A DNA stretch of 33,737 nucleotides. Source: Spirochaetales bacterium. Its GTDB lineage: Bacteria > Spirochaetota > Spirochaetia > SZUA-6 > DRHE01. Each line of letters starts with the position of its first letter. Position 1 is the stretch's first letter. The translations under genes and the position numbers were made by a program. This document shows, in pieces, positions 9,281 through 32,883 of this stretch. The stretch is from NCBI GenBank assembly GCA_016935715.1, contig JAFGQJ010000112.1, forward strand, positions 1 to 33,737, read 5' to 3'. The notes under the pieces are model-generated. The model had not been told where the DNA came from and made no database searches. It saw only the letters and a program-made list of their open reading frames with translations.

Positions 9281-9730
9281 ATGGCACTAGTTGATTTGAT
9301 TCGACCGGAGGTTGTCAAGGTTCCCCTGGTCTCCACCACCAAACCGGAGGTGATTCGGGAGCTCGTGGAGTGCTTGAGGGACGCCGGCAAAATTTCGGAC
9401 GTGGAGTCGGTGTACGACGCCCTGATGAAGCGGGAGAGCATGGGTTCCACCGGTCTGGAGCAGGGCATCGCCGTACCCCACGCCAAGACCCCGGCCGTCA
9501 ACGCCCTGACCGTGGCGTTGGGCATCTCGCCCAGGGGAATCGATTTCCAGGCAATTGACGGCAACCCATCCAGGTTGTTCTTTCTGCTGCTCGCGCCGCC
9601 GGACCAGTCCGGTCCCCACATCGAGGCTCTGGCGGACATCGCCCGCATCACCAAAAGCCAGGCCTTCTGCCGCACCGTGATCGGCTCCACCTCTCCGCAG
9701 GAGGTGGTGGAGCTGTTCAGCGAAGATTGA
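9281..9730 (+). CDS. PTS EIIA domain protein (fructose/mannitol/PtsN-type EIIA-2)
   Basis: EIIA-2 motif MGSTGLEQGIAVPHAKT with the phospho-acceptor His; LFFLLLAP; ATG at 9281 preferred over TTG at 9275. Confidence 0.88.
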   Translation: MALVDLIRPEVVKVPLVSTTKPEVIRELVECLRDAGKISDVESVYDALMKRESMGSTGLEQGIAVPHAKTPAVNALTVALGISPRGIDFQAIDGNPSRLFFLLLAPPDQSGPHIEALADIARITKSQAFCRTVIGSTSPQEVVELFSED

Positions 9731-28836: not shown

Positions 28837-29862
28837 ATGATTTCCAAAGAACAGATGCGTGAAAAGATCGCCTCGGAATCCGGCGCGGTGATCGACGTCC
28901 ACACCCACGTGGGCATCAGCCCGGGAGGGTACATCAGCCAGGGATATCCCTACTGCCTCAGCCTGGAAGACCTGGCGATCCGGATGAACATCCTCGGGAT
29001 TTCCTACTCGGTGGTTTTTCCCTTGGGGTCTTTCTACTATGCCCTGTCCCGGTCCAAGGAGAAGAAGGTCCGGATCAGCGGGCGGATCAGCCGTTTCCCG
29101 TACGAGCTGGCGAATCAGAACCTTCTCAACGAGATTTTCGAGATATTCCCCGGGTATTCGCAGCTCTTTCTTCCCTTCGCCATGTTCGATCCCTCCAGAA
29201 AACAGGCGGCCCAGGTGAAGCTGCTCCGGACCCTAGCCGATCGCTATCCCCTGTACGGATTGAAGACGGTGACCAGCTATTCCCAGGCGAACATCACGGA
29301 CCTTCTCTCGCCGCGGGGCCGCTGCATCCTGGAGTTTGCCCGGGATCTGGATATCCCCGTCACGATCCACACTTCGGTGGCCCCGGGAGATCCCTGGGCG
29401 AATGTTTTCTCCATCCTCGATGTGGTTTCCGACAATCCGGAGGTGCGCTTTTGCCTGGCTCATACCTGCCGCTTCAGCAAGACGGCCCTCGACACCGCCG
29501 ATCGCCTGGACAACTGCTTCGTGGACCTGTCCGCCTTTCACATCCACTGCCAGCTGGCCGTCCAGGACAGTCCGTCGATCGCGGGCAGGGATGAACGGTT
29601 CGACGCCGACTACCACAGGCCCCTGGAGGCGCTGAAACAGCTGGCCGAAGCCTATCCGCAAACCCTCTGCTGGGGTACCGATACGCCCGCCTACTACTAC
29701 ATCAATCGCTGGGTGGATGACCAAGGGAGGATGCACCGGTCGGATTTGAAGTGTGACTGGGACGTGGAAGCGCTGGCCCTGAGGAAGCTGGACGATCAGA
29801 CCCGCCGGCGCCTGGCCTACGACAATCCGCTGCGTCTGCTGTTTGCGGGCAAAGTTGTCTGA
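28837..29862 (+). CDS. Amidohydrolase family protein (amidohydrolase_2-like TIM barrel)
   Basis: VIDVHTHVGISPGG, IPVTIHTSV, FCLAHTCR, LCWGTDTPAYYY; ATG 28837 preceded by AGGAGGAACGAT. Confidence 0.78.
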   Translation: MISKEQMREKIASESGAVIDVHTHVGISPGGYISQGYPYCLSLEDLAIRMNILGISYSVVFPLGSFYYALSRSKEKKVRISGRISRFPYELANQNLLNEIFEIFPGYSQLFLPFAMFDPSRKQAAQVKLLRTLADRYPLYGLKTVTSYSQANITDLLSPRGRCILEFARDLDIPVTIHTSVAPGDPWANVFSILDVVSDNPEVRFCLAHTCRFSKTALDTADRLDNCFVDLSAFHIHCQLAVQDSPSIAGRDERFDADYHRPLEALKQLAEAYPQTLCWGTDTPAYYYINRWVDDQGRMHRSDLKCDWDVEALALRKLDDQTRRRLAYDNPLRLLFAGKVV

Positions 29863-29863
29863 G

Positions 29864-31045
29864 ATGGCCAAAGCCGAATTGAGCTCCAGGGAACGGATGC
29901 TGGGAGCGATCGAGTCGCGGGAGATCGACTATATCCCCTGCTCCTTCATGCTGTTCTGGAACGTCTCGCAGAGCTGTTCCTCCCAGGAGGAAAGCGTCGA
30001 AAAACAGCTGCAGCTGGGGCTCGATCCCTACCTCACCACGGGGCCGAAGCGCTGCCTTCATCCCGACGTCGAGTACCGGGAATGGGCGGAAACCCGGGAG
30101 GGGATCAAATATTTCTGCAGGAGCTTCGATACGCCCCGGGGGCCTCTCACCGGTGCAGTGCGCCAGATCGACGGCTGGCCCTCGGGGGGGGGCCTGCCCC
30201 TGTTCCACGACTTCATCGTTCCCCGCATCGCCGAGCCCCTTGTCAAGCCCGAACGGGACCTGGAGAAGCTGCCCTACCTGTTCGGGCCGTTCAGCGACGC
30301 GGCCGTAGCGGAATTCCGGGAGAAAGCCGGGAAGACCAGGGCGTTCGCGGAGAAGCACGGCCTGCTGCTGACCGGGGGATTCGGCTACGACGGCTATGAA
30401 GGGCTGGTCGGGGCCGAGGCCATGTCCTGGATTACCGGCTTCACAGAGACGATGATCCTGTCGGTGACCCGCCCTGAGCTCATCCGGGAATACGCGAACA
30501 TCATCCACGAGTGGAATCTGCGCCAGATCGAGCTGATCCTGGATATCGCGAATCCGGACCTGCTCATACGCAGGGCCTGGTATGAAACCACCGAATTCTG
30601 GACCCCGACAGCCTTCAGACAGATCATCGCCCCGACCATCCGCCGGGAAGTCGAGCTGGTGCATCAGGCGGGCAAGAAATACGGCTACCTAATCACAAGT
30701 GCATTCCTGCCAATTCTGGAGGACATCCTGGAGGCCGGCATCGACGTACTGATCGGACTGGACCCGAAGGAGGGAAAGGGGACGGACATCGCCGTGGTCA
30801 AGGAGCGTTTCCGTGCTCGAAACAAGGCCATTTGGGGAGGTGCCAGCGGGTCGGTGACCGTCGAGATGGGAACGGAGAGGGAAAACGAACAGGCGGTCAT
30901 GGAGACCCTCACTGTTCTCGGTAAGGGTGGGGGATTCATCCTCTCACCGGTGGACAATGTGCGGGAGGACAACGAAAGAACCTGGCGGAATACGTACACC
31001 TATATCGACACCTGGAAACGCTACAGGACCATCTATGGCCACTGA
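29864..31045 (+). CDS. Uroporphyrinogen decarboxylase (URO-D)/methyltransferase family protein
   Basis: SSRERMLGAIESREIDYIPCSFMLFW..., EILEAGIDVLIGLDP-type C-terminal half; ATG immediately after upstream stop. Confidence 0.78.
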   Translation: MAKAELSSRERMLGAIESREIDYIPCSFMLFWNVSQSCSSQEESVEKQLQLGLDPYLTTGPKRCLHPDVEYREWAETREGIKYFCRSFDTPRGPLTGAVRQIDGWPSGGGLPLFHDFIVPRIAEPLVKPERDLEKLPYLFGPFSDAAVAEFREKAGKTRAFAEKHGLLLTGGFGYDGYEGLVGAEAMSWITGFTETMILSVTRPELIREYANIIHEWNLRQIELILDIANPDLLIRRAWYETTEFWTPTAFRQIIAPTIRREVELVHQAGKKYGYLITSAFLPILEDILEAGIDVLIGLDPKEGKGTDIAVVKERFRARNKAIWGGASGSVTVEMGTERENEQAVMETLTVLGKGGGFILSPVDNVREDNERTWRNTYTYIDTWKRYRTIYGH

Positions 31046-31083
31046 TCCCATTAGCGGTGTATGATGCCGGGAGCGCTCGGATC

Positions 31084-32062
31084 ATGAGGGAACTACTGTC
31101 CACAGCGATTACTCCCGATTGGGAAGGTTTGATCTCCTGCATCCGGTGTGACAAGACCCCCGCACGCACGCATCACATCGAGCTCCTCCTCGACGAGGAG
31201 GTCCAGGATGCCGTCTGTGCCAGCTTCACCCTTCTCGAAGGCCTGGATCAAGAGGATCCGTACTTTTCGGAGAAAAGGCAGATCCGGCTGCAGCGTTTCC
31301 TCGGTTATGATTACGTCACAGTCTGTCCGGAGAATTCGGAAAGCTTTCTTCATCACTACGACAGCACCGAAGATACGGCAAATCTCAAGCGCTCGGAAGG
31401 GCGGGTGTTCATCGACGAGCATCGCGACCCCATCACCGATTGGGACGAATTCGACTCGTACCCCTGGCCCGATCCCCGCGATTTCACCACCCGCTCACTC
31501 GAGTACTACCAGGAAAACCTTCCCGACGACATGTGCATCATCGGCGGACTGGTCGGTTCCTACGCGGAGAACATCACCTGGCTGATAGGCTACGAGAGGT
31601 TGTGCTACGCCCTCTACGATCAGAGGGATCTGGTGCAGGCCATAGCCGACAAGCTCACGGAGATCTTTCGTGCCACTGTGCAGATGATCCTGCGCTTCGA
31701 TCGCGTCAAGGCAATTTGGGGAAGCGACGATATGGGCTTCCGAACCGGCACGTTCATCAGCCCGGAGGATCTGAGGACTTTCGTTTTGCCGGGCCACAAG
31801 GCTCTGGCCGAAATGGCGCACGATGGGGGCCATCCATATTTCCTCCATTCCTGCGGACGGATTGACCGCGTGACGGAAGATCTCATTGAAGGTGTCGGCA
31901 TCGACGCCAAGCACTCCTTCGAGGATACCATCGAAAGCGTCGTCGAGTTCACGAAGAAATACGGGCGGCGGATACTGCCTGGGCACGGGCAACTCGGTGG
32001 CCAACTACATTCCTCTGGCGGGCTATCTCACGATGCTCGATGAGGGGCGGAAATCCCGGTGA
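31084..32062 (+). pseudogene. Uroporphyrinogen decarboxylase-like gene with internal deletion and frameshift near the 3' end
   Basis: Frame 1 encodes a UroD-like protein up to ...FTKKYGRR (31971); a different frame then encodes the expected family C-terminus GGGYCLGTGNSVANYIPLAGYLTMLDEGRKSR* ending at 32062. Intervening ~30 residues absent. Start may alternatively be GTG 31057. Confidence 0.72.
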
Positions 32063-32883
32063 ATAGCAGCGATCACGGCAAAGATGACCCGGCGCGGCGG
32101 CAGCACGCGAGCGAATCACCGGGGGAGATCCTTTTCCTGCGCGTTCCGCCCGCGGGACTGGTCAAGCCCGTGGGGAGTGTCGGGCGACCCGTGCCGGCCC
32201 GCCTGCGGGCCGTGTTCGACCGCGACGGTTTCCGCGGCCGGGCGGGGCAGCGCAGCGTCACCTGTTTCTGGATCGGGATGGGCAGGCGCGTACGAGTGCC
32301 GGGCCGGAGGCTGCTGGAGCGGATTCGCTGCGGGGAGATTACTGAAATTATCGACATCGGCTGCGCCGGCGCCCTGGATCCGGCCCTGCGCAGGGGCGAC
32401 ATGGTCCTGAGCAGCGACGACATCGTCTTCGACGGCGGCTTGCCCGTGGTTGTTAGCCGCCGCCCGGAGCTGAGTTCCATTCTGGCCGAGGTGGCCGCGG
32501 GCCGGGGAGCCGCCTTCCGCAGAGCTCCGATCCTGACCCACGAACGTTTCGTCGCGAGACGGGAGCAACGCATCGAGCTGTTCGAACGTACCGGCTGCGT
32601 GGCTGTGCAGATGGAACACGCCTGGTTCGTCCGGCTCCTGCAGCAGCTGTTGGCAGCCGACAGGTTCGAAAAGATCCGGATCACCCACCTGGTGCTGATT
32701 ACCGACGCGGTTCCCCGCGGAGCAGGCCGGAGGGAAACAATGCTTTCAACCTGGGATGCCCTGACAGGCTACACTTTTCCGGGAGGAAGATGCGGGATCG
32801 CCTCCCTGCGTCGGGAGGTACTGAGCCGCTGGCCGGGTGCTACAGAGCCGCCCGGCGCCGTCCCTCCCCACCGATCTGGGTGA
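32059..32883 (+). CDS. Nucleoside phosphorylase/nucleosidase superfamily-like protein
   Basis: EIIDIGCAGALDPALRRGDMVLSSDDIVFDGG and CVAVQMEHAWFVRLL resemble PNP/MTAN glycine-rich and (E)ME motifs; GTG start overlapping ancestral stop of the preceding gene. Confidence 0.6.
   Translation: MNSSDHGKDDPARRQHASESPGEILFLRVPPAGLVKPVGSVGRPVPARLRAVFDRDGFRGRAGQRSVTCFWIGMGRRVRVPGRRLLERIRCGEITEIIDIGCAGALDPALRRGDMVLSSDDIVFDGGLPVVVSRRPELSSILAEVAAGRGAAFRRAPILTHERFVARREQRIELFERTGCVAVQMEHAWFVRLLQQLLAADRFEKIRITHLVLITDAVPRGAGRRETMLSTWDALTGYTFPGGRCGIASLRREVLSRWPGATEPPGAVPPHRSG

Follow-up and report, generated by a model that had tools for sequence, protein, structure and literature searches.

Gene content of the locus

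The window analysed here (33,737 nt of contig JAFGQJ010000112.1, from a Spirochaetales bacterium) carries two neighbouring UroD-superfamily genes on the forward strand, followed on the same strand by a gene of the nucleoside-phosphorylase superfamily (32059-32883; PF01048 profile match, GTG start). The upstream UroD-superfamily gene (29843-31045) is, by profile and alignments, intact along its length when compared with relatives of 55-57% identity. The second is represented by a broken ORF of 328 aa (31057-32043; likely original start, ATG 31084), recognised through its match to the URO-D profile PF01208 and the alignment of its relatives. The profile match (1.5e-11; 44.4 bits, above the curated cut-off of 23.9) covers profile positions 97-278 of 346. 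Against TIGR01463 (MtaA/CmuA methyltransferase) the ORF scores 24.3 bits, below the curated cut-off of 235.4, as does an intact relative (56.6 bits).

The product of the broken ORF ends with ...VVEFTKKYGRR-ILPGHGQLGGQLHSSGGLSHDAR (at full length, ...VVEFTKKYGRRILPGHGQLGGQLHSSGGLSHDAR) at a TGA met after a frameshift (32041-32043), and all codons from 31972 on, the final 23 of the ORF, are out of the ancestral frame. The family C-terminus, GGGYCLGTGNSVANYIPLAGYLTMLDEGRK, is found outside the frame of the ORF, at 31964-32062 of the same strand, where the ancestral 3′ end reads GGGYCLGTGNSVANYIPLAGYLTMLDEGRKSR and closes with a TGA at 32060-32062. An earlier note on this DNA had described a family-like C-terminus in another frame, running from 31964 to that TGA, and our reading agrees with it base for base.

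The GTG of the phosphorylase gene (32059) overlaps the ancestral TGA as GTGA. The frameshift moves the stop by only 19 bases, to a position 15 bases ahead of the GTG, and the overlap is gone. The earlier note took this as a lost coupling between the two genes; the overlap with the ancestral stop is indeed there, but a loss of coupling is not established, because re-initiation over 15 bases is possible. Moreover, in a congeneric genome (G001) the GTG of the phosphorylase ortholog also overlaps the preceding stop as GTGA, and there the preceding gene encodes a GNAT-like acetyltransferase; the overlap is thus common to both phosphorylase genes although the genes before them are unrelated, and it is no peculiarity of the UroD gene. 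The phosphorylase gene of the window has about 16 extra N-terminal codons compared with its G001 ortholog (window 32059-32106; L165 6850-7020). A separate idea, that in-frame TAG/TGA codons are recoded in relatives of the neighbouring genes, was dropped: no stop interrupts the coding sequence aligned for the flagged UroD-like matches, nor the displayed portion of the phosphorylase alignment.

Gene order in G001 is V-ATPase, UspA-like, PTS EIIA-like, GNAT-like and phosphorylase, the first four names being taken from translations and not from a profile search. The window matches this order through the PTS-like gene (stop 9728-9730), after which about 22.3 kb intervene before the phosphorylase gene. 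This block (9731-32058) occupies the place where G001 has only the GNAT-like gene, and carries, among others, genes for a gamma-glutamyltranspeptidase, ABC transporters, a ROK regulator, a DegT aminotransferase, a molybdopterin oxidoreductase and amidohydrolases as well as the two UroD-like genes. In this lineage-specific block, which has the look of an island, the broken gene comes last. The window's genome, about 91% complete, yielded no ortholog of the GNAT-like gene, the best match reaching 28%. Part of the block (about 13-24 kb) has a GC content of 52-60%, against 60-66% around it.

A conserved segment is missing from the broken gene

A scan of about 85,000 genomes yielded 80 loci coding for relatives of the broken gene, with about 52-61% identity and labelled as Planctomycetota, Chloroflexi, Hydrogenedentota, Armatimonadetes, Spirochaetaceae and others; searches of related genomes added more. 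The final alignment comprised 88 relatives, of which 87 could be scored. The remaining one, L115, is itself interrupted upstream by a stop codon in frame. This relative (L115:4106-4975; DAOUVF010000107.1) has an in-frame TAA/TAG/TGA just upstream of the LHSCG motif, and represents either a second broken member of the family or a sequencing error.

After the YG.RI motif, the scorable relatives continue, with small variations, as ALLGGIDVDFLCR...R.RVR.TL..C.P and then GGGYCLGTGNSVANYIP...Y..MLDEGR. The first of these stretches, a segment of about 35 residues, is present in all 87 and absent from the broken gene. The implied loss is exactly 107 bp when measured against 84 of the relatives and 116 bp against the other three, both lengths being of the form 3k+2. 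As 107 equals 3x35+2, the rest of the gene shifts frame and runs into an early stop. The earlier note had argued that a missing segment, and hence no simple indel, lies at this place. The alignment bears this out, but the segment amounts to about 35 residues (107 bp) and not to the 30-33 proposed.

On either side of the junction the gene has retained its family character. Before the junction, 57 of the 61 columns conserved at ≥95% are kept; the four departures place the gene towards the upper end of the family's range but still within it. Twelve further conserved columns are gone with the segment. Beyond it, the detached tail retains 14/14 family columns conserved at ≥95%, and its 32 residues match the family by themselves (window 31961-32053; E-value 1.3e-12, 84% identity), far beyond chance. 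Because the tail has kept all of these columns, the deletion event looks recent and the pseudogene, judged from its sequence, looks young.

The same data bear on whether the gene might belong to a separate, naturally shorter subfamily. The best relatives are just about 61% identical, and a short sister group could be missed at that distance. Against this, the family tail stands in the wrong frame with every conserved column kept, and short forms, which the earlier note had singled out as the observation that would speak against a deletion, number zero among the scorable relatives. We regard such a subfamily as exceedingly improbable.

Conversely, the lack of decay in the tail would also be expected if most cells carried an intact gene, the 107 bp having been dropped in the assembly or consensus or being absent in part of the population. 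The draft genome is fragmented (426 contigs, 5.83% contamination), which favours such an explanation. However, among its 19 PF01208 matches none contains in-frame stops, and no second or intact copy of the broken gene, such as a strain variant, was found on other contigs, the nearest sequence in the same genome (G000) being an intact 45% paralog on contig C310. In addition, a repeat of 11-12 bp is shorter than the words used by assemblers and is unlikely to make an assembly collapse. An error or a minority allele is accordingly unlikely in our view. More specific, and quite improbable, is a scenario in which the deletion allele varies within the population, some of whose members keep the 107 bp, and in which loss of this enzyme, encoded at the border of a lineage-specific catabolic block, is being selected. 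UroD-superfamily genes, by sequence matches, are strongly expanded in the window's lineage; several relatives (among G001, G005, G008, G018, G059 and G063) have at least 20 matches to the protein of the broken gene.

The junction fits the family in two frames

The deletion junction, CGGGCGGCGGATA (31962-31974, forward strand), would be the remaining copy of a direct repeat of about 11-12 bp, with about 107 bp missing. This stretch fits the family in both frames, as G-R-R-I upstream (YG-x-RI) and as G-G-G-Y downstream (P-GGG-Y). Outside it each frame leaves the consensus, with L for A after the I and T for P before the GGG. A dual-frame fit bounded in this way is what one would expect once a deletion had joined two copies of about GGGCGGCGGAT.

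Both arms of the putative repeat occur in intact relatives: the upstream arm CGGGCGGCGGAT is found letter for letter in L073, whose upstream site reads CGGGCGGCGGATC, and the downstream arm GGGCGGCGGATA likewise in L118, at its downstream site. In this register the two sites of L073 itself share 8 bp, and those of most relatives share a run of only 1-4 bp. To place the match against a background, we considered 3.6 million pairs of breakpoints separated by 80-139 bp in 65 GC-rich genes of the family. Pairs sharing at least 9 bp occur at a frequency of 1.5e-4, and those sharing at least 11 bp at 6.6e-6. The codons that the repeat requires are ordinary for the window. The ATA at the junction is a rare codon (11% of Ile), which is explained if the TAC in the downstream arm supplied its last A.

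No pair of direct or inverted repeats remains around the junction (31850-32120), as expected when one copy has been consumed; the repeats are deduced from the family and not seen. No closer ortholog carrying the parental repeats was found: the best sequence overall is about 61% identical, an order-level search gave at best 54%, and two congeneric genomes contained no ortholog of the broken gene (best, 42%). The repeat is consequently a reconstruction. The proposal of the earlier note that the junction matches the family both upstream and downstream thus holds for the two frames and gains from the arms in L073 and L118, but its flanking repeats are inferred, as the parental sequence was not found. 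Its further proposal, a deletion of about 100 bp between short direct repeats, is supported by the 107 bp implied by 84/87 relatives and by the rarity of such a breakpoint match.

Predicted consequences for the protein

As a search by sequence found no relative with a solved structure, we compared folds. The model of the intact relative L050 (pLDDT 90, pTM 0.89) is closest in fold to UroD structures and to the Methanosarcina mazei methyltransferase 4ay7, which we take to be MtaA of that organism. The lost part corresponds to about residues 301-336 of the L050 model, with a strand (305-307), two helices (312-317 and 320-334) and the invariant residues G308, G309, D311, D313 and C334; the out-of-frame part corresponds to a strand (340-342) and a helix (354-363). 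Judging from the order of strands, the lost segment would be β7 and α7 of the TIM barrel, and the frameshift would scramble β8 and the last helix. The model of the broken product is good up to the junction, with pLDDT of 34-41 beyond. The end of the PF01208 match at 278/346, the absence of the segment and the models agree that the ORF lacks a complete TIM barrel (β7, β8 and C-terminal helix). A TIM barrel that has lost its final two strands would not be expected to function, and the product is almost certainly inactive on the strength of these predictions.

A short form still in use, whether as the truncated protein or through ribosomal frameshifting into the frame of 31964-32062, would be in line with a 5′ part that is stop-free and keeps most conserved residues, and with the open frame of the tail. 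Nevertheless, even a frameshifted product would lack the segment present in every scorable relative, and the barrel is incomplete in the models; a functional short form is therefore very improbable. Programmed frameshifting in particular was rejected, since no unusual RNA structure was found over 31950-32075 (z -0.65) and the segment would be missing anyway.

Probable origin of the pseudogene and comparison with known systems

Our preferred reading, to which we assign a probability of about 0.8, is that a 107-bp deletion between short direct repeats turned this gene into an inactive young pseudogene. The original gene would have been a normal UroD-superfamily member of about 360 codons, on the MtaA/CmuA-like side. 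The 107 bp, presumably in the chromosome, would have been lost between two short GC-rich direct repeats of about GGGCGGCGGAT, one arm lying over the codons for YG-R-R-I and the other over those for P-G-G-G-Y. Strand slippage or misannealing is the likely route, with a single copy of the repeat left behind; the loss would then have brought about the frameshift, the early stop and a young pseudogene. The main bearing of this single case is on annotation, in which the ORF at 31057-32043 should be flagged as a pseudogene or possible mis-assembly and not as a 328-aa enzyme. It also shows neatly how the size of a small deletion can be read from one genome by combining a family alignment with a conserved tail that lies in another frame.

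The sequence family of the 5′ part places the broken gene within the UroD superfamily (PF01208), on the MtaA/CmuA-like methyltransferase side (TIGR01463, PRK06252), from whose members it differs in lacking about 35 residues and in its out-of-frame C-terminus; even its intact relatives fall far short of the curated cut-offs for the named methyltransferase subfamilies. The proposed mechanism is a textbook, common and ordinary way of gene decay. RecA-independent loss of the DNA lying between short direct repeats has been documented in E. coli K12 (PMC5426353), and our literature search for a direct precedent of such a pseudogene returned nothing closer than this general mechanism. Like pseudogenes that arise by deletion between short direct repeats, through slippage or RecA-independent misannealing, the present one would have lost the interval and kept one copy of repeats that were short and close; it differs from them in that only the product is seen, the event itself being unobserved and the repeats deduced from the family.
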